Made by a program: the position numbers and the translations under genes. Shown here piece after piece: positions 35,201 through 51,924 of a DNA stretch of 51,924 bases (position 1 is its first letter; each line of letters starts with the position of its first letter). Origin of the DNA: a virus. The DNA is taken from positions 1 through 51,924 of IMG/VR virus record IMGVR_UViG_3300029913_000031; one strand, written 5' to 3'. The notes under the pieces are model-generated. The model ran no database searches and had not been told where the DNA came from. It saw nothing but the letters and a program-made list of their open reading frames with translations.

Positions 35201-35706
35201 AACAATACATAACAGATCAAACGGGACAAATAGCATTACCAACACCACCAACAACCGAGACGCTATCAAACGATTTTAATGATCTTAATAATTACAAAAT
35301 GGTATCTGATGAATTAATTTTTAATTCGGCTCAGTTTGTTCCACTTTTTGGTGATAAAGCCGACCCCTCGGTTCAGGCAACATTTGTGGCCGTAGCAAAC
35401 CCAAATAGTGCAGTGGGTGCCGGCGAAATTGCAAGCCAAATTATTACTCTTGTAAATAATTTTTTTACAATTGGTAATTTTAATTTTGGCCAAACATTTT
35501 TCTGGGCACAACTATCTAACTATATTTTGTCGAATATGACCAATATTATTAATGCGGTTCATCTAGTTCCAAATGCAGGAAATCTTTCGTATGGTGCGTT
35601 AGAGCAAATTGTCTGCAACCCATATGAAATTTTTATATCAGCGGCTACAGTAAAAAATATCTCTGTCGTAACTAGTCTAAACAATCTTAATTTGAGGATT
35701 TCATGA
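32284..35706 (+). CDS. 6: Baseplate wedge protein gp6
   Basis: An 1140-aa protein. The N-terminal section LRKSFINYLQLKNPENFNDYIESSEFTALIDLIAFMGQSMSFRYDMNARENFLPTA is diagnostic of gp6 (J-like wedge dimer), and the central IFGDGVFGAIP and YNSFPFTKY fit too. It is longer than T4 gp6 (660 aa), in line with cyanophage-type versions. gp6 dimers tie wedges into the baseplate ring. Predicted leaderless from its late promoter. The stop overlaps the next start (ATGA). Confidence 0.9.
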   Translation: MGTSLQATTAFGIQDWQAFYTSMGSPNLASYDFSTLRKSFINYLQLKNPENFNDYIESSEFTALIDLIAFMGQSMSFRYDMNARENFLPTAQSRNSINYLANLVNYIPSRNLAANGYLKINSLSVNDNVYDSLGNNLNGITINWNDRTNRNWQDQWNTIINAVLISSQTIGNPGNTNVINGINYSEYGLSSSAGQAPPYAFTASINSSSTNFEIVNPTSVGETFIYEIDPEHTSTFNLLYENDGLGFASQNTGYFLYFKQGTLSSQTFSIASGLPNTSINLSQTGVNNSDVWLYQLNTDGTITEWTQVQTIYGENTAFNNLPSQQQTIFSVTNQINDAITLIFGDGVFGAIPQGNFICFTRSSNGLTYRINPSEMSNLSFPINYTSKTNRTQLLTINASLQYTVGNSAGTESLANIKLKAPQSFYSQNRMVNGQDYNSFPFTKYSNILQLKAINRTASGVSRYLDVIDPTGKFSSTNVFCDDGFIYTDPSVITNNYTYANQNNLATIVESQITSLISSNNTLSFVLNPSNYPITIPSAATAWNLVLTDNTSSSGWISDVATGNLITINDGRFAPVSHSSILKIGSLLQFTAPTGQFFDINNNLITSSSQLLNQKSIIYAAITSADSAGIGNSISMNGINVDGSGAILLSQKIPTGALLTGILPLYIPVLPSNLIQKLITYLTNGNAVALSYNSYTLSWSLDNTLPLNFSPAIYGSQFIAPMSPAAINTNDWLLAFVPTSTTTFTVYQQSNAYYFGSEQQTTFYFDPNAKVYDPTNASTLTDQIIILETNSAPGVAVNLGLPNDISVDVYAVVDEINGLIDNSRVQIQYAGLAYTGIPTDPFFFKDCVSDSNFIFLVTDNSQSTTKLISSGANQVVVVNLPTDINNNLYSYANGAIIFCLSTLQFYQISRVGSLATKTTLNQPGSTLTYSYYVGRQNLKFQYQHNASDNRRIDPSPSNIIDMYCLESSYATAYQQYITDQTGQIALPTPPTTETLSNDFNDLNNYKMVSDELIFNSAQFVPLFGDKADPSVQATFVAVANPNSAVGAGEIASQIITLVNNFFTIGNFNFGQTFFWAQLSNYILSNMTNIINAVHLVPNAGNLSYGALEQIVCNPYEIFISAATVKNISVVTSLNNLNLRIS

Positions 35707-38700
35707 GAAAAATAATTTTATCAATAATGTTAGCCTGTATAGGCCCCTTTAGCCTTGCGCAGAATCCAGCGACTCAAATTGCTCCAATTTCTGCGCTTAA
35801 TGCAAAATATTCTAACGGTACTGCGCCCGGGTATTGGGTTACCGCTGGCACAGGATTGCAAGCAGAAATATCGGCTGGAACTGTTAACTGCCAAGGGTCA
35901 ATATTTATATATAGCGGAGGGACATTAACACTTACTGCCTCATCCCTAAATTATATCTATCTTAATACCTCGGCATCGTGCGTACCCGCAGTGAAAACGA
36001 CGAATTTTGGTGTAACCGATATTCCTGTTGCGATTGTTCTAACAAATGCTAGTGTGATAACATCGATAACCGATGAACGAACTATTTTTTCAGGTGAAAC
36101 CGCCAGAGCTATTACCGCAGAAACTGCCGCCCAAGCGACCGCTAATGCTGCATTACCTGCAAATGGTACGTCAACCACACCAGGGGGTAACTTCCAGGCT
36201 ACTAATATAATTATAGGTTCCGGTACCCCGTTATTAACGATGTATAATTCAGGCGGTGAGGCCTTATTCTCTGGACCTCTAGGATCCGGACTAGTGAACC
36301 CAGTAATTATTGGAGGGGCAAGCGGAAGTTGCACAGGACTTTATGCCAAAGCAGACGGCACTGGATGCGGACCAGGCGGCTCGACAACTTGGAACGCGAT
36401 GACAAACGGAGCACAGACTGGTAGCGGACCATCACAATTAAACACGCTCCCAGGAGGTTTAAGCGTTGGCACCGGCGCACCGTCTATTACCCTGGGCGGG
36501 TCCACTGGCAATGGCACATTCCCAGGCACCGTCGTGGCTGGCACTACGAACGGCCAGATCAACGCAGCGCAGCAGCAAACCCCAGCAGGAACGGGGAACA
36601 ACGGCATTGCCAACTCGTTTCTGGCGTGCCTCGCCGCTCCGTCGGTTGCCTGTTCCATTCTGGCTCCCGCGAACTATGCGCAGACGGAAGCACAGCCCTG
36701 GGGCATGGGAAATACGACAGATTATGGCATTCCAGTGAATGGGCCTGCCGCCACAACTACTAGCGGTTGTGTGACTGATTATAGATGGGGTCCACCGCAG
36801 GTGATTTGTCATGGTGGCATGTCACTTGGGGATAATCGGCACTATGCCCAGCCCCTGTTTGCTCAAACGGTTACCAGTGCCGGAAGCGGCAATACTCCGC
36901 ATCCTGCTGCCGCGCTTAATCTTCAACAATCCGTTTTCGGGGGTACGCGAGATTTTGACGGGGATGAAACCAGTCTGAATACTATGATTACCCAGATGTG
37001 GGTGCATTCGTCGGGTTCGCAGGCTGGGCATAACATCAGCTTGACCAGTTATGCGCCAGGTGACTCGATACCGCTCCTTACAGGAGCCTTTAGTGTGGGC
37101 CAAGGTTTAGCACAGAACGAGGGCCTGGAATGGCGCTCACGCCTGGGAGAGACGGGGAATGTTCCAGAGGGCAGGCTCAATACACAGACCTGCGGAGCTA
37201 CCTGCACATTTGCCCTCACGCAGACTCAGGGAGTCACCGGAAGCTGGGGGAACGACTTGGCCATGATTGACGTTACGCATGGCTACAACGCAGGGTATAT
37301 CTCAGGCATCAGTGCAGGCACATTTACCGGCTCCAGCGCAGCCAATTGGGACTCAACGTTTGGCCTGACAACTGCCACAACGACGACCACGGCGGCTATA
37401 ACCACCGGCTCCCAAACGGGCGGCACGAACACCATGCCGCTGTCCAACGTGACGATCCCTGTTGCCAGTTCGACAGGATTCAGTACCGGCCAGACGGTCT
37501 GCATGTTCGACAAGGTGGACCCTAGTTGGCAATGCTCTCATATCACGGCAGTGCCGGACGGGACGCACATCACCGTGGATGTGATGAATTACCCTCTCAC
37601 AAATAACTCGACAGTAGCTGCGGGCGGACTTACCGGTTATGGCTTTGGTATGGATGCCGATTGGGTAGTTCCGGGTGTGACGAACGGGATGGCCGTCAGC
37701 GGAGAGAGTGGGCTGGACGGAACTGTCCGGGTGATATATCCTATTGTTTCCAGTGCCAGCGGAAACACATTGACGATTTACAACGGCGCCGGAGTGAACG
37801 GCACCATCAATACGCGGTCCTATGGCTATGCCCCAGCCTTGACAGGCTCAGGCGGTACGGCTACGGTGTCGGTGAGCGGCGGCGCAGTTACTGCTTGCAC
37901 AGCGACTGGCGGCACAAGTTACACAGTAAACTCGCCTCCTACCATCCAGATTACAGGCATCACTTACACTTCCGCGCCGATGATCTATCCCACAGTGGTA
38001 GGCACCGCGCTCTCAGGATGCACTATTTTAAATGCAGGTGCGGGCATTACCGGGACGCCGGTGGTGGCTGTGAACAATAATCCGTATCACATCTACCCGC
38101 AAGGACGAACTCTAAATGTCTACAACGGGGCCACCGGAGCTGTGGATGGATCGGCAATCGTCACGACTCCGGTTGTCGGTACGTTCGCCACGGGGGATAC
38201 GCTGGAGCAGCCGCATTATTTCAGAATCAAGATCAATGGGTTGAATTTCGGCTTCAATAACTATCAAGAAGGCGGCCAGCATTCCAATTTCTACTTCCAA
38301 TCAGCCGGTCAATTCGGGAGTAACGATTACGAGGGCCAGTTTGCAAACAACAACGATCCGACACTTTATGACGGTTACCCAGCGGTTAGTTTAACAGGGT
38401 ATATCCCCGGACGCGGCCAACTAACTACGCCGTATGGAATGGTGCTTTCCGGCCCTCATCGCGATGGACTGTTCATGGGGTTGCCACCTTATGGGGGCAA
38501 CGGAGGAAGCAAGATGGGGGCGGTGGTTGTTGGCTGCGGCACAAGCGCACAGTGCGCGGCATGGAATGCGACCTATCCCATGCTGAACGCGCAGGGCTGG
38601 AATAGCGCCCAGGCCAAGCAGGCGGAAGACATTCTCGGCTACAACCCGGCGACGCAAAGCTGGCAACTGACTTCCGGGTCGACGGGCAACGCGGGGGCCG

Positions 38701-40007
38701 GTTCATCTTGCACCTATACGTTCGGGCCAAGTGGAGCCAGCGCCTCTGGCACCGGATGCACTTCATTCGGCACGGTTACAAACTTTGCAGCTTCGGCGGG
38801 CACTTGGCCTTCCTGGCTGGTTCCAACGGTGAGCAACTCTGCCTCTACACCATCTTTGTCAGTGATCGCCAGCGCGATACCTAACTCTGCGCTGGCCAAC
38901 AGTTCGACCACGGTAAATGGGCAGACTTGCACGTTGGGGGGCAGTTGCACCGTTGCAGCCACCGGATCGGCTATGAGTCCGAACGTCCCCGGCTGGCTGC
39001 AATATTTTGGCGACGGATCAAATGGCTCGAACACCAACGCCAGCGGCAACATGAGCGGCGAGTATAATTACACGACCTTCACCGTTCCTTATGGCAACAC
39101 GGTGACGGTGAACTCTGCGGCAGGTTTGATCGTCCACGTATCCGGCGCCTGCACGATTGCAGGGACGATTGAAGCGAATGGCGCAATGGCTGGATATGGA
39201 AATGGCTACCCGATGGATAGCAGCGGTGGCGGTGGGTCGGGTGGTGGCACTGCTGCCGGTACTGCTGGGCTACCCTATTACTACGCTACCAATATTGGTA
39301 CGACTGGCGGTGGAGCGGCAGGAGCAGCAAACGGCGGAAACGGTGGAAATGGAGGTACGCTTTCCTCCGGCCTTAAGCACAATTTCCTTGCCTTGGGAGC
39401 TGGGCTGGATGGCCTATATTCCTATGGCGGGGGTGGCAAGCAGGGAGGTAGCACAGGGGGAGCAGCCGGAAATGGTGGAGCACCTGTCATCCTGATGTGC
39501 GCCTCGATAACGGGTACAGACGGCACTCACACGGGCATCATTGACGCGAGTGGAGGATACGGCGCACCTCCTGCTGCAAACTCTACAGGAGCAGGATCAG
39601 GTGGAGGCGGGGGTGTCGTAGTTCTTTCCTCGCAAGCTGCCGTTTCGACTTGGCCATCCATCTACACGGCTGGTGGTCCTGGGGGCCTGGTTACCGTGCC
39701 TGAGGCTGCGGCAACAAGCGGGACCTGCACGAGCCAGCCCAAAGCAACACTGGGCGTCACTTCCGGGGCGCTGTCCAGTTGCACGGTGGTACAGGCTGGC
39801 GCAGGATGCGGCACAGGGACGAATGTAACTTTCAACATTCTGGGTGGCGGAGGGTCGGGCGGGACGGTTACCCCGACGTGGAGCGGAGGCGCTTTGGCCT
39901 CTTGCACGGCGTCGGGCGGTTCCGGCTACACGGCGGCAACCTATACGACATCCGGAACGGGCGGAGATGGCGGTGCTGGATGGAGCGCGGAGTTCCAAGG
40001 GTGGTAA
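35703..40007 (+). CDS. Giant chimeric fibre/surface protein with Sec signal peptide
   Basis: A 1434-aa protein starting MRKIILSIMLACIGPFSLAQ, a textbook signal peptide with cleavage likely after SLA. Residues 20-225 are AT-rich in DNA and resemble an extension domain ending in a fibre-like GSCTGLYAKADGTGCGPG. From about 36.4 kb the DNA becomes strongly GC-rich with different codon choice. The remainder is beta-rich and Gly/Ser/Thr-rich, with many cysteine pairs and a Gly-rich C-terminus (GGGGSGGG). Position after gp6 suggests a tail-fibre or baseplate adhesin. A cleavable signal is very unusual for virion proteins, so a secreted or host-captured protein is an alternative. Start overlaps the gp6 stop. 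Confidence 0.75.
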   Translation: MRKIILSIMLACIGPFSLAQNPATQIAPISALNAKYSNGTAPGYWVTAGTGLQAEISAGTVNCQGSIFIYSGGTLTLTASSLNYIYLNTSASCVPAVKTTNFGVTDIPVAIVLTNASVITSITDERTIFSGETARAITAETAAQATANAALPANGTSTTPGGNFQATNIIIGSGTPLLTMYNSGGEALFSGPLGSGLVNPVIIGGASGSCTGLYAKADGTGCGPGGSTTWNAMTNGAQTGSGPSQLNTLPGGLSVGTGAPSITLGGSTGNGTFPGTVVAGTTNGQINAAQQQTPAGTGNNGIANSFLACLAAPSVACSILAPANYAQTEAQPWGMGNTTDYGIPVNGPAATTTSGCVTDYRWGPPQVICHGGMSLGDNRHYAQPLFAQTVTSAGSGNTPHPAAALNLQQSVFGGTRDFDGDETSLNTMITQMWVHSSGSQAGHNISLTSYAPGDSIPLLTGAFSVGQGLAQNEGLEWRSRLGETGNVPEGRLNTQTCGATCTFALTQTQGVTGSWGNDLAMIDVTHGYNAGYISGISAGTFTGSSAANWDSTFGLTTATTTTTAAITTGSQTGGTNTMPLSNVTIPVASSTGFSTGQTVCMFDKVDPSWQCSHITAVPDGTHITVDVMNYPLTNNSTVAAGGLTGYGFGMDADWVVPGVTNGMAVSGESGLDGTVRVIYPIVSSASGNTLTIYNGAGVNGTINTRSYGYAPALTGSGGTATVSVSGGAVTACTATGGTSYTVNSPPTIQITGITYTSAPMIYPTVVGTALSGCTILNAGAGITGTPVVAVNNNPYHIYPQGRTLNVYNGATGAVDGSAIVTTPVVGTFATGDTLEQPHYFRIKINGLNFGFNNYQEGGQHSNFYFQSAGQFGSNDYEGQFANNNDPTLYDGYPAVSLTGYIPGRGQLTTPYGMVLSGPHRDGLFMGLPPYGGNGGSKMGAVVVGCGTSAQCAAWNATYPMLNAQGWNSAQAKQAEDILGYNPATQSWQLTSGSTGNAGAGSSCTYTFGPSGASASGTGCTSFGTVTNFAASAGTWPSWLVPTVSNSASTPSLSVIASAIPNSALANSSTTVNGQTCTLGGSCTVAATGSAMSPNVPGWLQYFGDGSNGSNTNASGNMSGEYNYTTFTVPYGNTVTVNSAAGLIVHVSGACTIAGTIEANGAMAGYGNGYPMDSSGGGGSGGGTAAGTAGLPYYYATNIGTTGGGAAGAANGGNGGNGGTLSSGLKHNFLALGAGLDGLYSYGGGGKQGGSTGGAAGNGGAPVILMCASITGTDGTHTGIIDASGGYGAPPAANSTGAGSGGGGGVVVLSSQAAVSTWPSIYTAGGPGGLVTVPEAAATSGTCTSQPKATLGVTSGALSSCTVVQAGAGCGTGTNVTFNILGGGGSGGTVTPTWSGGALASCTASGGSGYTAATYTTSGTGGDGGAGWSAEFQGW
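36400..40007 (+). other. GC-rich island within the fibre gene
   Basis: Base composition shifts visibly upward at about 36.38-36.48 kb and falls back after the stop at 40007. Codons ending in G or C predominate, against A/T-ending codons in the rest of the window. The coding frame is continuous through the junction, so foreign DNA was fused in frame to a native 5' part. Long shadow frames on both strands are a by-product of the high GC content. Confidence 0.8.
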
Positions 40008-40055
40008 GTTAACTCGGCGACACATGTACGGCGTGCCGCAAAAAAGGTTAAATAT

Positions 40056-43000
40056 ATGAAACGATTTCTCATAGCACTAGTATTCATGCTTCTTCCTTGT
40101 GTAGTCCACGCCCAAGCGTGGAGTGGACTACTTTATCCATATGGATCAGGAACTTGCACTGGCGCAACCCCAACAGGATGCGCGGTTGATTGGAGCGTAG
40201 CAGGCATACCGGGAGGTATTCCTACAGCAACACAAGCAGGTAGCACCATTACATCTACAGGTAGTGATCAAACCTCAGCTATAAACACGGCTTTAGCCGC
40301 TTGCGGTGGATCGGTAGGAGCCGAGAAATATGTTAATCTGGCTGCCGGTACTTTTGTGATCGCTGGTACATTAACGGTTCCAAGTTACTGCTACCTTAAT
40401 GGGCAGGGCGCGAATTCAACAATTCTGAATTTTACAGGTTCAAGCGGCAATGGTGCGATTATCCTTGGCTCATCCTCATTCCCAAGTACAGCCAATGATA
40501 CTGCGGTTACTAGCGGACTAACGGCCGGATCTACTAGTGTCACGGTAGCCAGTGCTACCAATATCTCAGTTGGTAAGTTACTCACAGTCACAGAATTAAA
40601 CTCTCTTGGCAACAACGTAAATTCGACTGGTACTGAAGGCTTCTGCAACTTTTGCGATGTATATGGAGGTTATAGGTCAAGTGGGCAGACCGTTCTAGTA
40701 ACCGGCGTGAGCGGGACCACAATCACCATTTCACCTGGGCTATACTGGACGTTTGGGTCCACGTTGCCTAGCTGGGCAACGTCGCATACATATTACCCTG
40801 GCGCGAACGTTACCAATGGTGGAAACATCTATCAGGAAACCGCGGCGCCTACAGGTTCAGGCGGTAATGGACCTTATAATTGCACAAGCGGCACAGGGTC
40901 TTTTTCAACAACTTCCGACGGAACTTGTACCTGGACACTATACGGATCAGGAACAACTACCGCTCCCTTAGCAACACCATTTTCTCCGTCAGCAATACAA
41001 GCCGGAGTAGAGAATCTGCAAATATATACGACAAATGCAGGAACAACTACAAGCGTTGGTGTCGATGTTCTTGGTTCGATGTGCGAAAATTGTTTTGTAC
41101 ACGGAGTCGAGGTAAATTACACCGATGCAGACTATTTTGATTTCCATTACAGCTACGGCGGAGAGGTTAGCAACAACTACTTCTCAAACGCTATTTTCCA
41201 CCAGCCTGGTACTTACGATTCGACTGGTCAAATCGATTTCTACACCTCAAAAATGAAAATTGAAAATAATATATGCGAAAGAGGACATGATTGCATAGTC
41301 ATTGAACGAGGGCCATCTGGTAACGTAATCAGCTATAACTATACTCTAGGCGAATTTGATCAAAATTCACCTAACTTTATGATAGGTGGTATCGATTTCC
41401 ATGGAGCAAATCCAGAATTTAACTTGCTTGAAGGGAATGTGCTGACAACCATTGATCTCGACTCAATTTGGGGATCTAGTACACGCAATACAGAATATCG
41501 TAACTGGGTAATCGGCAGTTCAGACAATGGGTATCCATTAGCAGCAGGGCGTAATACAGTTACCTCCGGAAGTACATTACAGGTTTGTAGCGCATTAACA
41601 TCGGGACATACCTGTAATCCATTTCAGGGAGCTAGAGCATTTCAGGCTTCCACGCTTTCAATAGGAAATAATGCGTTAGGCAATGTAATCGGTGGCCCTG
41701 AGCAAGAAAATAATATTGGATATGGTCCTGGACCCGGAGTAGGCGTAACGCCTTATAATAGTGGTACCGGACAAACCGACGCTGTACAATATCCTGTTAA
41801 CAGAAGTTATGATAGCCTTGTATATGGATGGTCCTTCGGCTATTCTGAAGCGGCGGACGATGGGGTTACAGCACCGGGCAATGCGGCTGATTCGACACTG
41901 GCATACTCTAGTGCTACCTTACACGGAAACTACGGAAATATTTCTAGTGCAATCGTATGGAAAACTGGGCTTACACACACACTACCCGCGTCATTCTATT
42001 TGAGTGCTAAACCATCTTGGTGGGGTACGACACTTTCTTATCCGGCTATTGGACCGGATGTTACTGGCGGCAGTGGTCCTGGCGGCCATGCGGCTCTTAT
42101 TCCTGCACAGGCCTGCTATGCAGCAATGGGCGGAACACCTGGTAATGCGGGATCTCCATTAACTTTTAACGCGGCATCTTGTTATAGTGCAGGCTTACCT
42201 GTTGCTGTCACCCCAACATTTTCACCGGTGGCGGGGACCTACACCAGTACCCAGAGTGTTGCTATTACGTCAACCACTCCGGGAGCATCGATTTACTATA
42301 CTACAGACGGAAGTACTCCAACAACAGCATCATCATTATACTCTACGCCTATTTCGGTATCAGTTTCCGAGACTATCCAAGCGCTTGCAGTAGCGTCTGG
42401 TTATACAAACAGTCCGGTAGGCTCGGCAGCCTTTGTTATTGGAACACCGGTGGCAGCATCGGCTAGTTTTTCTCCTGCAGCGGGAACATATACTTCTATT
42501 CAATTAGTTACAATTAGTAGTTCCACTACCGGTGCTACAATCTGGTATAATACAACCGGTACATTTACTGGCTGCACTACCACAACTTGCACGGGTGCAA
42601 CCCAAGTAACGGGTACGGTATCAGTTGCATCGTCGGAAACCCTCTATGCTATTGTTACCTACGCAGGATATACTAATTCTGCAATAACTTCCGCGGCCTA
42701 TACAATTAACCTACCTGCGGCTGCTCTCCCAACATTAACCCCCGGAGCGGGAACATATGTTGGAACACAATCTGTTACTATTGCAAGTACAACCCCGGGG
42801 GCAATACTCTATTACACGACAGATGGTACAACCCCGACACCATCCTCAACTCTATACACGGGTGCTATTTCGGTTACTGTATCAGAAACAGTAAAAGCAA
42901 TTGCAATAGCTCCGGGATACTCAAATAGCGCGATAGCCACCGCCGCATATGTAATCAACCTACCTACTGCGAGTGCGCCAACTTTTTCACCGGGAACAGC

Positions 43001-43571
43001 AACGTATACTTCGGTACAAACGGTGTCTATCTCTAGTGGAACATCTGGTGCTACAATCTGGTATAATACAACCGGTACATTTACTGGATGCAATACCACA
43101 ACTTGCACAGGAGCTACCCAAGTAACGGGTTCTGTTACCGTATCAACGACACAAACGTTGTATGCAATTGCTACTAAAATTGGATACAATAACTCTTCAA
43201 CGAGTTCGGCCGTCTATACTATTAACATCACGTCCACGACTGCAACTCCTATATTCAATCCAATAGCAGGCGTATATACTACTACACAAACAGTTATAAT
43301 TACCGATTCAACTCCTGGCTCGATCATCTATTATACAACAGATGGCACGACGCCCACTACTAGTTCTACCGTTTATACGGGTGGTATTTTGGTGGGTACA
43401 ACAAAAACCATTAATGCATTAGCGGCGGCTTCTGGATATAATAATTCCGCAATTGCCGCTGCCCCATATATAATCACAACAACGCCGGGAAACTGTGCAA
43501 TGACCTTAGGCGGGGGTGCAATAATTACATTAGGAATCAATGGCAGTATTACACTAAGCAATTGTCATTAA
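40056..43571 (+). CDS. Secreted beta-helix protein with chitobiase-like C-terminal repeats
   Basis: A 1171-aa protein starting MKRFLIALVFMLLPCVVHAQ, a clear Sec signal peptide (VHA cleavage). Residues about 60-540 show pectate-lyase/parallel-beta-helix features (GSDQTSAINTALAACGG, VNLAAGTFVIAGTLTVPS, then many N/G turn repeats such as EGNVLTTIDLDS). Residues about 715-1145 contain five chitobiase-type repeats (TPTFSPVAGTYTSTQSV... IYYTTDGSTPT). These are typical of bacterial extracellular carbohydrate-active proteins. It could be a tail spike depolymerase or an exported enzyme. AAAAAAGG precedes the ATG. Confidence 0.78.
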   Translation: MKRFLIALVFMLLPCVVHAQAWSGLLYPYGSGTCTGATPTGCAVDWSVAGIPGGIPTATQAGSTITSTGSDQTSAINTALAACGGSVGAEKYVNLAAGTFVIAGTLTVPSYCYLNGQGANSTILNFTGSSGNGAIILGSSSFPSTANDTAVTSGLTAGSTSVTVASATNISVGKLLTVTELNSLGNNVNSTGTEGFCNFCDVYGGYRSSGQTVLVTGVSGTTITISPGLYWTFGSTLPSWATSHTYYPGANVTNGGNIYQETAAPTGSGGNGPYNCTSGTGSFSTTSDGTCTWTLYGSGTTTAPLATPFSPSAIQAGVENLQIYTTNAGTTTSVGVDVLGSMCENCFVHGVEVNYTDADYFDFHYSYGGEVSNNYFSNAIFHQPGTYDSTGQIDFYTSKMKIENNICERGHDCIVIERGPSGNVISYNYTLGEFDQNSPNFMIGGIDFHGANPEFNLLEGNVLTTIDLDSIWGSSTRNTEYRNWVIGSSDNGYPLAAGRNTVTSGSTLQVCSALTSGHTCNPFQGARAFQASTLSIGNNALGNVIGGPEQENNIGYGPGPGVGVTPYNSGTGQTDAVQYPVNRSYDSLVYGWSFGYSEAADDGVTAPGNAADSTLAYSSATLHGNYGNISSAIVWKTGLTHTLPASFYLSAKPSWWGTTLSYPAIGPDVTGGSGPGGHAALIPAQACYAAMGGTPGNAGSPLTFNAASCYSAGLPVAVTPTFSPVAGTYTSTQSVAITSTTPGASIYYTTDGSTPTTASSLYSTPISVSVSETIQALAVASGYTNSPVGSAAFVIGTPVAASASFSPAAGTYTSIQLVTISSSTTGATIWYNTTGTFTGCTTTTCTGATQVTGTVSVASSETLYAIVTYAGYTNSAITSAAYTINLPAAALPTLTPGAGTYVGTQSVTIASTTPGAILYYTTDGTTPTPSSTLYTGAISVTVSETVKAIAIAPGYSNSAIATAAYVINLPTASAPTFSPGTATYTSVQTVSISSGTSGATIWYNTTGTFTGCNTTTCTGATQVTGSVTVSTTQTLYAIATKIGYNNSSTSSAVYTINITSTTATPIFNPIAGVYTTTQTVIITDSTPGSIIYYTTDGTTPTTSSTVYTGGILVGTTKTINALAAASGYNNSAIAAAPYIITTTPGNCAMTLGGGAIITLGINGSITLSNCH
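42211..43490 (+). repeat. Five chitobiase-type repeats, two with near-identical DNA
   Basis: About 250-265 nt per unit in the 3' third of the secreted beta-helix gene. Units 2 and 4 carry a GCTACAATCTGGTATAATAC-type stretch of about 85 nt at 42531-42616 and 43047-43132 that differs at only a few positions, while units 1, 3 and 5 share the IYYTTDG variant. This alternation suggests duplication of a two-repeat block. Confidence 0.8.
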
Positions 43572-45108: not shown

Positions 45109-45137
45109 ATTATAGCATTATTCAGATAACTTTTCAA
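45109..45137 (-). promoter_or_regulatory. Sigma70-type promoter, leaderless geometry
   Basis: Minus strand TTGAAA, 17-nt spacer, TATAAT, 6 nt, ATG at 45102. It overlaps the end of the upstream small gene. Confidence 0.6.
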
Positions 45138-45456
45138 GCAAATTATGACCTAGTATTTCCTTTAAAATTTCTGTCGCTTCATCCTGCCAATTCGGATTAC
45201 TTACCCAAACGGTTGGCATTACTAATTCGTTATATCTATTTGGGTTAATAGTGATATGTTTTTCAGTGATCGATTCTATTATGCACACCTCAGAGACCTG
45301 CGTAAAGGTTGTTCCATAATTACCATCGTTTCCCCAGGTATATCCTAAAATTTTAAGTTTTAACCGCTGGTATTCGTCATAAATTATGGCAATTTCGTTT
45401 TCTATCTCTACACGATCGCGTATTGCAGCAAGAACTCGTTTTTCTAGTAAACACAT
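45118..45456 (-). CDS. YTWG-family small protein C3
   Basis: A 112-aa protein related to those at 45682 and 46011: IYDEYQRLKLKILGYTWG near residues 24-42, a variable middle, PTVWVSNPNW, and a closing NLLEKLSE. The ending resembles that of the YPxA family but the body is longer and different. Starts directly at the stop of the 71-aa gene. Function unknown. Confidence 0.7.
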   Translation of the reverse strand: MCLLEKRVLAAIRDRVEIENEIAIIYDEYQRLKLKILGYTWGNDGNYGTTFTQVSEVCIIESITEKHITINPNRYNELVMPTVWVSNPNWQDEATEILKEILGHNLLEKLSE

Positions 45457-45672
45457 TTACACCAAACTTTTTGAAAATTCCAGTGCATCCATTACCTGTT
45501 CGATTAACCCATATTCATTATTGCATGGGTATTCGACATAATCTCCATTCGGATCCATAAGATTAACCCACCCAGAATCCCGTTCGACTTGTATGACTAT
45601 GCGGTAGCCTTCGGGTAGTTCTTGAGCGCATCTCTGTAATTGTGCATCGAGTTGTAATGGGTCAAAAGTCAT
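45457..45672 (-). CDS. Hypothetical small protein
   Basis: A 71-aa acidic protein (MTFDPLQLDAQLQRCAQELPEG...). TAGGAAAATATT precedes the ATG. Sits between members of the YTWG family but shows none of their motifs. Not recognised. Confidence 0.65.
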   Translation of the reverse strand: MTFDPLQLDAQLQRCAQELPEGYRIVIQVERDSGWVNLMDPNGDYVEYPCNNEYGLIEQVMDALEFSKSLV

Positions 45673-45681
45673 AATATTTTC

Positions 45682-46008
45682 CTATTCCGATAATTTTTCA
45701 ATCAATACTAGATTTACTTCGTTGGTTATACCGAGCATCGCTTCAATTTTCCAATTTTCATCGCTTATCCATCGAGTAGGAAAAATAAATTCACATCCCT
45801 GACCACTATTAACAGTGATAAATTTTAAATTCCATTTACGATTATATACTGGTCGAATAGTTGTATCTTTTGAACGACGTCCAAACCCCCAGGTATATCC
45901 TAAATTTTTCAATTTAATTGCCTGCCATTCGGCGTAAATGTGTTCAATCTCTTTTTCGATTAACTCGGTATTTTCGGCAACAATTTTAACTACTTCTACG
46001 GGAATCAT
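45682..46008 (-). CDS. YTWG-family small protein C2
   Basis: A 108-aa protein: IEHIYAEWQAIKLKNLGYTWGFG, FPTRWISDENW, and LVLIEKLSE. Closest relative in the window is C3. The start follows the upstream stop by 2 nt. Function unknown. Confidence 0.72.
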   Translation of the reverse strand: MIPVEVVKIVAENTELIEKEIEHIYAEWQAIKLKNLGYTWGFGRRSKDTTIRPVYNRKWNLKFITVNSGQGCEFIFPTRWISDENWKIEAMLGITNEVNLVLIEKLSE

Positions 46009-46010
46009 AC

Positions 46011-46343
46011 CTACTCCGACAATTTATCAATCAGTAATTTATTTTTCCGTCGTTTTAATTTCTTCCGAAGGCAATTTTTCCAATCCGGATTGTTAAGATA
46101 GGACACAGGAATTTTTAACGCACCTGATTTTCGAGCATTAATATAAATATCCGACTCTAATAATTCCATAGAAAGTACGTTTGCTTTTTGTTTTGAACTC
46201 CTGGCCCAAAAAGACGGTTTAACTAATCCAGTGCCTAGTTCTTCGATAAGTACATCTTGCCATTCATCGTACAACGTTGCCGCATACGTCTTAATGGCAA
46301 GAAGATTTTTAATTGTTGTATTATATAAATCTTCAGAAATCAT
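46011..46343 (-). CDS. YTWG-family small protein C1 (divergent)
   Basis: A 110-aa protein: ATLYDEWQDVLIEELGTG where the relatives have YTWG, IPVSYLNNPDW, and KNKLLIDKLSE. The ATG overlaps the RNA ligase stop (TAATG). Function unknown. Confidence 0.68.
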   Translation of the reverse strand: MISEDLYNTTIKNLLAIKTYAATLYDEWQDVLIEELGTGLVKPSFWARSSKQKANVLSMELLESDIYINARKSGALKIPVSYLNNPDWKNCLRKKLKRRKNKLLIDKLSE

Positions 46344-51202: not shown

Positions 51203-51436
51203 TTACGCGAAAAGTCGTGCCTTGGAACCCCATACGTCCCGTGAACTAATCCAATATTTGGTCCGACCATCCGTGGTCTTATCTGTATTGACTTGCAGAC
51301 CAAGCTGGCGAAGCTCTGAAATACGCGCACGTAAATTTAAAATGCCAAAATAAGAACGCGCCTGACGAGAGGTGAGAGAGCGACTGGTTCCGCGCAAGAA
51401 ATCGTGAAGGAAAGAATTTTGAGAATTTTGAGACAT
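51203..51436 (-). CDS. Helix-turn-helix DNA-binding protein
   Basis: A 77-aa protein. RSLTSRQARSYFGILNLRARISELRQLGLQV (about 19-49) fits a winged helix-turn-helix in which LxARISELRxxG is the recognition part, followed by a beta wing (TKYWIS). Similar small HTH proteins are common early regulators in phages. TAGGAGA precedes the ATG. Lies next to the duplicated control element, which could be its target; this is inference. Confidence 0.75.
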   Translation of the reverse strand: MSQNSQNSFLHDFLRGTSRSLTSRQARSYFGILNLRARISELRQLGLQVNTDKTTDGRTKYWISSRDVWGSKARLFA

Positions 51437-51475: not shown

Positions 51476-51607
51476 ATGATTGAAATTTTGGTTATTTTGG
51501 TTTCTCTTGCAATAATTGGAATTTTGCTAATTCCTGAAAAAATTAATTTACTCTGCAGAATAAAAAAATTTTATTATTCGGCCCTAACTTCCACCCGCAA
51601 GGGATAA
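51476..51607 (+). CDS. Possible small membrane protein, 43 aa
   Basis: MIEILVILVSLAIIGILLIP..., one N-terminal membrane helix then a basic tail (RIKKFYYSALTSTRKG). Late-type promoter and GGGGG Shine-Dalgarno. Its end overlaps clpS on the other strand by 34 nt, which lowers confidence. Confidence 0.5.
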   Translation: MIEILVILVSLAIIGILLIPEKINLLCRIKKFYYSALTSTRKG

Positions 51608-51885
51608 TTCTGAAGTTGAGCATCTCGTAAAACCAACTCGGTAAGATGTGTTGCAATTTCTTTGGTGAGATTTTCGGCGGCTACACCGGAGCCCGTTGTA
51701 CTAATTTCCTCAGTTAATACCGCAGCCGATTCGATATCAAAATTAAAAATTCTAATTAAAGTTTCGGCAACAAACACCGCACTAGTTTTTTCATCGGTTA
51801 GATAAACAACCGAATATAATGTTGGTGGAATAACCTTGGTATTAATTTTTGTTCGAGTTACAACATTAGCAGAAGATTCTGGCAT
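51574..51885 (-). CDS. clpS: ClpS-like protease adaptor
   Basis: A 103-aa protein matching the ClpS core: PPTLYSVVYLTDEKTSAVFV, an amphipathic LIRIFNFDIESAAVLTEEI, GSGVAA-NLTKEIA, and NYPLRVEVR. ClpS binds N-degron substrates and delivers them to ClpA(P). The usual ND pair is TD here, and the His of the VHxxG block (His66 in E. coli) is Ser62, so N-degron specificity may be altered or lost. The N-terminal 18 residues are the flexible tail that in cellular ClpS enters ClpA. AAAAGGAAA precedes the ATG. Confidence 0.8.
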   Translation of the reverse strand: MPESSANVVTRTKINTKVIPPTLYSVVYLTDEKTSAVFVAETLIRIFNFDIESAAVLTEEISTTGSGVAAENLTKEIATHLTELVLRDAQLQNYPLRVEVRAE

Positions 51886-51924
51886 TATTTTTCCTTTTGA
51901 GTTAATTAGTGGGTGTTGATTGCT

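Follow-up and report, generated by a model that had tools for sequence, protein, structure and literature searches.

A phage ClpS-fold adaptor with altered N-degron and ClpA-contact residues, encoded in a conserved clpX-hsp20-clpS cassette

The window, i.e. the whole stretch of DNA that was analysed (51,924 nucleotides; IMG/VR record IMGVR_UViG_3300029913_000031), is a T4-type environmental myovirus contig, as indicated by PHROG matches to a baseplate wedge, hub lysozyme, SbcC-like protein and clamp loader, and further to PhoH, a late sigma factor and RNA ligases. Its positions 27000-51924 gave no near DNA match among 50,697 phage records. Close to its right end lies an open reading frame of 103 codons with an ATG start, read on the minus strand. 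A twin contig (G001, behind locus L001) overlaps the window over 12,958 bp with 2 mismatches (99.985% identity). The features of the locus are the following.

51203-51436, minus strand: winged helix-turn-helix protein of 77 aa (HTH_39, Pfam PF14090), the next gene downstream of clpS
51574-51885, minus strand: clpS-like adaptor gene, 103 aa (Pfam, PHROG, PDB match, AlphaFold2 model)
51820-51885, minus strand: residues 1-22, forming the N-terminal extension and including the junction prolines Pro20-Pro21 (from the sequence)
51886-51924, minus strand: contig end, 39 bp upstream of clpS, beyond which the twin L001 continues into the hsp20 remnant and clpX
L001:4807-4950, between clpX and clpS: truncated hsp20 remnant, 47 aa (alignment to the Hsp20 of L007)
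L001:3459-4715, same strand as clpS: complete clpX, 418 aa, with zinc finger and AAA domains (Pfam on the twin)

The original prediction, made from the sequence alone, had taken the ORF for a ClpS homologue, and all comparisons agreed with it. The protein scored 40.4 bits against the Pfam ClpS family PF02617, for a cut-off of 23 (46.5 bits for the twin protein), and matched PHROG 27368, 'ATP-dependent protease' (2.6e-10), as well as E. coli ClpS in the PDB (1.4e-6). An AlphaFold2 model calculated from an alignment of 48 phage sequences (mean pLDDT 84, pTM 0.64) superposed on Caulobacter ClpS with a TM-score of 0.97 (by target length) and an rmsd of 0.8 Å for 3gq0, and with a Z-score of 17.4 for 3dnj. 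The core fold is that of ClpS. The core is preceded, as expected of the family, by an N-terminal extension that is unstructured and joins it through tandem prolines; extension residues were modelled with low confidence (mean pLDDT 52 for residues 1-10 and 62 for 11-20). For the junction prolines of E. coli ClpS, a role in allowing pulling and slipping by the unfoldase has been proposed (PMC9663308, excerpts). The ORF is a real gene that encodes a ClpS-fold adaptor, and both synteny and the tree described below placed it among phage ClpS; against cultured phages, tblastn with the window protein returned just four weak matches, with E values of 3 to 6. The PF14090 match of the downstream gene was scored on its identical copy in L001, and ORFs resembling this gene by eye also lie downstream of clpS in L005, L007 and L120.

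Because the window stops 39 bp upstream of the clpS start, clpX and the hsp20 remnant were invisible to the original prediction. In the twin, both genes lie upstream of clpS on its strand, outside the window; 31 residues of the hsp20 remnant align with the Hsp20 of L007 at 52% identity. This arrangement recurs in large phages. In a scan with the twin ClpX, clpS lay downstream of clpX on the same strand in 71 of the best 80 of 359 phage clpX loci, and the contig stopped 59-1,117 bp past clpX in the remaining 9 of these 80. Among the 71 loci, again from the best 80 of 359, hsp20 stood between the two genes in 69, was present as a remnant in one, and was absent from one (L005). The 71 loci include near-copies and contain 56 distinct ClpS ORFs. 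PF02617 was present in all 46 of the 46 records tested, which were taken from the 80, and Hsp20 was confirmed by Pfam in L006, L007, L008 and L210. A further scan, run with a different ClpX and overlapping in part with the first, found clpS within a shorter flank in 41 of 80 loci (best 80 of 93). The other 39 of these 80 comprised 12 whose flank extended for at least 2.5 kb and had hsp20 near its end, 9 with less than 2.5 kb of flank left (one of them with hsp20) and 18 to which neither applied. The pairing of clpX with clpS is therefore regular among the nearest ClpX relatives but does not extend to phage ClpX in general.

The clpS gene of E. coli stands beside clpA, whereas the phage gene adjoins clpX and hsp20. 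Leptospira clpS2 also neighbours clpA (PMC12493166, excerpts). The phage arrangement exists in cultured jumbo phages: PA5oct and Paride (L114 and L115) encode a ClpS in the same general order, namely clpX, an S21 gene, two more genes, hsp20 and clpS. The clpX of Paride, annotated merely as 'hypothetical protein', was assigned by position and tblastn, and PA5oct carries an FtsH-like gene a few genes beyond its cassette. Unlike the window protein, PA5oct ClpS retains His66, Glu82 and Lys84, and the canonical version of the cassette could be tested in laboratory strains with PA5oct/Paride-type phages. In the excerpted text of PMC7824862 and PMC6102473, phage-encoded ClpS and ClpX are already reported from jumbo phages, among them the ClpS gp708 of Atu_ph07; they are listed there as single genes, as opposed to the conserved cassette with Hsp20 found here. 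No description of a clpX-hsp20-clpS cassette or of a His-less phage ClpS was found in the PMC literature searched, subscription papers lying mostly outside it.

Residues were numbered throughout as in E. coli ClpS, by alignment. In characterized ClpS proteins the alpha-amino group is bound by the triad Asn34, Asp36 and His66 (Caulobacter Asn47, Asp49 and His79), Met40 acts as gatekeeper, and Glu79, Glu82 and Lys84 contact ClpA, with salt bridges from ClpS Lys84 to ClpA Glu23 and from ClpS Glu82 to ClpA Arg86 (PMC12493166, excerpts). The window protein resembles canonical ClpS (E. coli 1lzw and 3o2b, Caulobacter 3dnj and 3gq0) in fold, length, N-terminal extension and junction prolines, and Asp35, Thr38, Glu79, Ala81 and Leu99 are unchanged. 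It departs from them at all three triad positions (His66 to Ser, Asn34 to Thr, Asp36 to Glu), at the gatekeeper (Met40 to Ala), at two further pocket sites (Met62 to Thr, Leu32 to Tyr) and in the docking helix (Glu82 to Thr, Lys84 to Leu), where just Glu79 is left of the three ClpA contacts. The loss of the conserved His to Ser, on which the prediction was built, was confirmed by the alignment. The prediction had also read meaning into TD instead of ND. The window does read TD, but the difference is private to it: one of the two mismatches to the twin in 12,958 bp falls in codon 34, which is AAC (Asn) in the twin and ACC (Thr) in the window, and Asn34 is found in 93 of 94 distinct phage ClpS. 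Since the codon differs from that of the twin by one base only, Thr34 is trivial, possibly a strain polymorphism or a sequencing error, and we rejected it as a meaningful change. Tyr32 (86/94 distinct phage ClpS) and Thr62 (83/94) are general in cassette phages; in the bacterial ClpS that we fetched, residue 32 is mostly Leu or Met and residue 62 mostly Met. The pocket changes are wider than the prediction had described, with Met40, Asp36, Met62 and Leu32 also altered, which makes a weakened or altered N-degron binding plausible. As judged from sequence, the locus holds a ClpS-fold adaptor without the full set of canonical N-degron and ClpA-contact residues, inside a conserved phage Clp cassette.

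We then compared all phage ClpS that we had gathered. Identical ORFs, L002 (the window itself) and ClpX ORFs shorter than 350 aa were dropped before counting, and the incomplete L277 and L236 were counted as gaps. Residue 66 could be read in 93 of 94 distinct phage ClpS and was His in 85, Asp in 4, Ser in 2 and Asn in 2; residue 84, readable in 92, was Lys in 82, Arg in 3 and Leu in 7. The seven Leu84 proteins (window, L001, L005, L006, L007, L120 and L210) all lack His66 and make up seven of the eight phage ClpS without it. Glu82 is lost in the same seven, being replaced by Thr in the window, L001, L005 and L007, by Asn in L006, by Ser in L120 and by Gln in L210; the sole readable phage ClpS elsewhere without Glu82 is that of Sinorhizobium phage Phosso (L116, Arg). 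Glu79 and Asp35 are kept in 7/7 and Asn34 in 6/7. The seven formed one clade with an SH-aLRT support of 99 when columns 66 and 84 were left out (85 columns), so that the His loss is a trait of the clade and not noise. This tree, like the ClpX tree below, came from a quick search, with L210 flagged as a long branch; sequences at least 80% identical to one already kept had been dropped from the input. The eighth His-less protein, a ClpS-like protein of Vibrio phage 2.275.O (L003:3992-4348), resembles the clade in having lost His (to Asp), yet it keeps Lys84, branches outside the clade on a very long branch and is encoded beside genes for IF-3 and ribosomal protein S21; no clpX was seen within the 8 kb examined there.

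These counts bear on the possibility that the protein is still a working N-degron adaptor, in which Ser, Asp or Asn would stand in for His and the small gatekeeper would widen the choice of substrates. All replacements of His are polar, Asn34 and Asp35 are kept in the clade as stated, and the model superposes on peptide-bound ClpS. We nevertheless hold this to be quite unlikely, given that 85 of 93 phage ClpS retain His66, as do 76 of 76 distinct bacterial ClpS, and that multiple pocket residues have changed together. The bacterial figure is biased, because the scan pattern, ND[ED]xT[TP][MAV][EQV]F[VI], and the restriction to the best 80 both favour canonical ClpS, and an exception is known. 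Leptospira interrogans ClpS1 has Asp62 for His, Val80 for Lys84 and Tyr36 for the gatekeeper Met, and both Leptospira ClpS proteins inhibit the ATPase of LinClpA in an N-domain-dependent manner (PMC12493166, excerpts). By this published description, the same sites are changed in Leptospira ClpS1 as in the window protein but to different residues, and the Leptospira gene is bacterial and located away from clpA, unlike the clpS of the phage cassette. LinClpS1 still inhibits ClpA, so losses of His and Lys84 need not end ordinary ClpA binding (PMC12493166, excerpts).

The clade could also be seen as one of decaying, non-functional clpS genes, especially as the twin retains just 47 aa of hsp20 and L005 and L120 lack the gene (it is intact in L006, L007 and L210). 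This is very improbable. The ORF is open and alignable in all seven members, and the docking helix carries the clade-specific motif KE[LI]A[TN]HL in five of them (A1), KELASHL in L120 and a different sequence in L210. Moreover, dN/dS ranged from 0.14 to 0.34 in 9 of the 10 pairs of five members (one was not computable), at dS values of 1.5-2.6 that are near saturation. With such low ratios the clade ClpS looks like a maintained protein, under what appears to be purifying selection. Part of its divergence is whole-phage drift, since Hsp20 has diverged too: as measured on three clade members, the identity was 0.33 vs 0.48 for Hsp20, 0.40 vs 0.55 for ClpX and 0.34 vs 0.56 for ClpS.

The ClpX proteins of the clade are altered as well. 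Their pore-1 loop reads GYIG in 6/6 sequences versus GYVG in 130/130 other phage ClpX, and the pore-2 segment, which ends in EGVQQ in 130/130 of the others, is replaced in 6/6. The zinc cysteines, the Walker A and B motifs, the Arg finger, the sensor-2 Arg and the xGF ClpP-docking loop are all kept. The six sequences formed one clade (SH-aLRT 98) on a long stem in the quick tree. This stem was dropped as a proof of special selection, Hsp20 having diverged as well. The RKH loop, which also differs in the clade, was dropped as a clade mark, the exact RKH being present in just 53 of the 130 others.

An adaptor that had moved from ClpA to the adjacent phage ClpX, and that fed changed substrates to it with host or phage ClpP, would fit several of these observations. 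The pore-2 loop of ClpX normally blocks the channel, unlike that of ClpA (PMC9663308, excerpts). The gene is syntenic with clpX, the pore loops have changed specifically in the clade while the catalytic and docking motifs listed above have been kept, the same phages group together in the ClpX tree, and ClpX is the sole AAA_2 ATPase found on 5 of the 6 clade records. Still, no ClpS is known to work with ClpX, whose zinc domain is unlike the N-domain of ClpA; the exchange of GYVG for GYIG is conservative, and the altered RKH loop means little next to its variability in other phages. The phage of L210, furthermore, encodes a ClpA-type ATPase, which had escaped the Clp_N profile, and on this ground ClpX was demoted from main partner to an alternative that we regard as unlikely.

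Clp components other than ClpX are frequent in cassette phages. ClpP was found in 37 of 56 cassette records (30 of 46, plus 7 of 10 further ones) and a ClpA-type Clp_N domain in 14 of 56 (10 of 46, plus 4 of 10). All nine tested cassette records of at least 200 kb had a ClpA-type gene, and eight of the nine had a ClpP-family gene, some matches being weak; these records (G021, G022, G032, G037, G039, G041, G051, G052 and G053) have nearly complete Clp sets. Leucyl/phenylalanyl transferase (Aat) was absent from all 26 records tested, and a phage Aat making N-degrons was rejected accordingly. Within the clade, the L210 record contained ClpP, whereas none was found in the window, the twin or the four other clade records, all of them possibly fragments. 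The Clp_N profile detected no ClpA in the six clade records, that of L210 included. The AAA_2 profile did retrieve a ClpA-type ATPase (open frame of 753 aa) from the 195.8-kb L210 record; in the five other clade records, again possibly fragments, it found ClpX only, and the window gave no AAA_2 match. Across the ~138.6 kb of window and twin, no ClpA was found.

In the PDB, the L210 ATPase is matched best by E. coli ClpA, with residues 145-730 covered and the N-domain outside the match. In this N-domain, Glu23 is replaced by Thr, Glu28 by Asp and Arg86 by Asp; because the domain has diverged so far that the Clp_N profile missed it, positions 23 and 86 are aligned with less certainty. As the partners of ClpS Lys84 and Glu82 are ClpA Glu23 and Arg86, respectively, both salt bridges are lost from both sides in the L210 phage, the sole phage in which a changed ClpS and a changed ClpA can both be read. 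In the ClpAs of other cassette phages Glu28, Thr81 and Arg86 were kept in 10/10, and residue 23 was Glu or Gln. We enlarged the comparison by a scan with the L210 ClpA (best 80 of 245), which together with the earlier ClpAs gave 91 ORFs, 68 of them distinct. In this set of the best 80 of 245 plus earlier sequences, three distinct ClpAs, counting that of the L210 phage, were of the L210 type (L297; L301, identical in L302, L304 and L305; and L303), with Thr23 in 3/3, Asp, Gly or Thr at position 86 in 3/3, and Thr81 kept in 3/3. The other 65 distinct sequences of the same set kept Arg86, Glu28 and Thr81 in 65/65, with Glu in 49 and Gln in 8 at residue 23. None of the five contigs L301-L305 carried clpS. 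The largest of them shares its metagenome number with L005 and L006, and 39 of its ORFs resemble the L210 record, from which we infer that it belongs to the clade.

The prediction had proposed that the protein may block or retarget host ClpAP. Such a decoy or modulator, blocking or redirecting host ClpAP, would be compatible with the preserved ClpS fold, junction prolines and Glu79, with the lack of any phage ClpA in the ~138.6 kb of window and twin, and with the precedent of LinClpS1, which has similar changes and still inhibits the ClpA ATPase (PMC12493166, excerpts). However, both residues that form salt bridges with ClpA are lost in 7/7 clade members, matching residues are lost in phage ClpAs of one type, and Clp components encoded by the phage itself are frequent among cassette phages (ClpP in 37/56, Clp_N in 14/56). 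The sequences thus lend no support to the proposal, whose probability we put low, and blocking of host ClpAP is less likely than a rewired phage adaptor. Taken as a whole, the original interpretation is partly supported.

On this basis, we tentatively favour an adaptor that has been rewired at its N-degron pocket and at its ClpA-docking helix and that would serve the Clp machinery of the phage itself. The window ClpS probably serves a phage protease machinery with altered targets rather than that of the host. In this mechanism, the ClpS core would dock on the N-domain of its putative partner, a matching ClpA-type unfoldase encoded by the phage itself, and the N-terminal extension would be drawn into the channel as far as the junction prolines, a pulling mechanism that is still expected because these prolines are kept (PMC9663308, excerpts). 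The altered pocket would hand over a class of substrates other than the classical Phe, Leu, Trp and Tyr N-degrons. Docking would have been rebuilt on both sides in the clade, with ClpS Glu79 and ClpA Thr81 unchanged, and this two-sided change of the interface may insulate the phage ClpS-ClpA pair from host ClpA and ClpS. The clpX-hsp20-clpS cassette would then be part of a phage Clp set that frequently includes phage ClpP and, in the tested large genomes, phage ClpA as well. A further-reaching reading, in which ClpS, ClpA and ClpX have co-changed (pocket, salt bridges and pore loops) into an insulated phage pathway for a new degron class, apart from host ClpAPS and ClpXP, seems to us rather doubtful. 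The clade represents one evolutionary event, and hence no probability can be attached to the co-change. It amounts to a natural experiment in which the pocket and the docking face of an adaptor, the neighbouring ClpX and, in one phage, ClpA have all changed. With it come defined protein pairs for asking how ClpS selects both substrate and unfoldase, as well as a clue to the proteins that phages break down during infection.

Some other features of these contigs were recorded. Upstream of clpX, L001 encodes a WGR-domain protein, a PP2C phosphatase and a phosphoribosyltransferase (L001:1605-3224), and similar genes precede clpX at L005:2640-3735, L007:2200-3692 and L120:1833-2576; PP2C was confirmed in L120 and the rest assigned by resemblance. 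A role of this neighbourhood in counter-defence is possible. Downstream of clpS, L005 (6437-7138) and L007 (6769-7272) encode repeat proteins whose units, about 20-23 residues long and nearly identical, are of the AVQQNGYAIRYIKNPSEQLQL type. Within the window, three adjacent minus-strand ORFs of 108-112 aa (45118-46343) end in LLEKLSE, LIEKLSE and LIDKLSE and are likely paralogues; a Pfam scan of one of the three gave no match. Finally, a GC-rich block of the window (GC content 0.56 and 0.51 over 36001-42000 versus 0.34-0.44 elsewhere) holds, at positions 35703-43571, two ORFs that are very long (1434 and 1171 aa) and whose starts resemble signal peptides. The second of these ORFs contains five stretches of the chitobiase-C-terminal type, and the block has the appearance of an adhesin or fibre module acquired from elsewhere.
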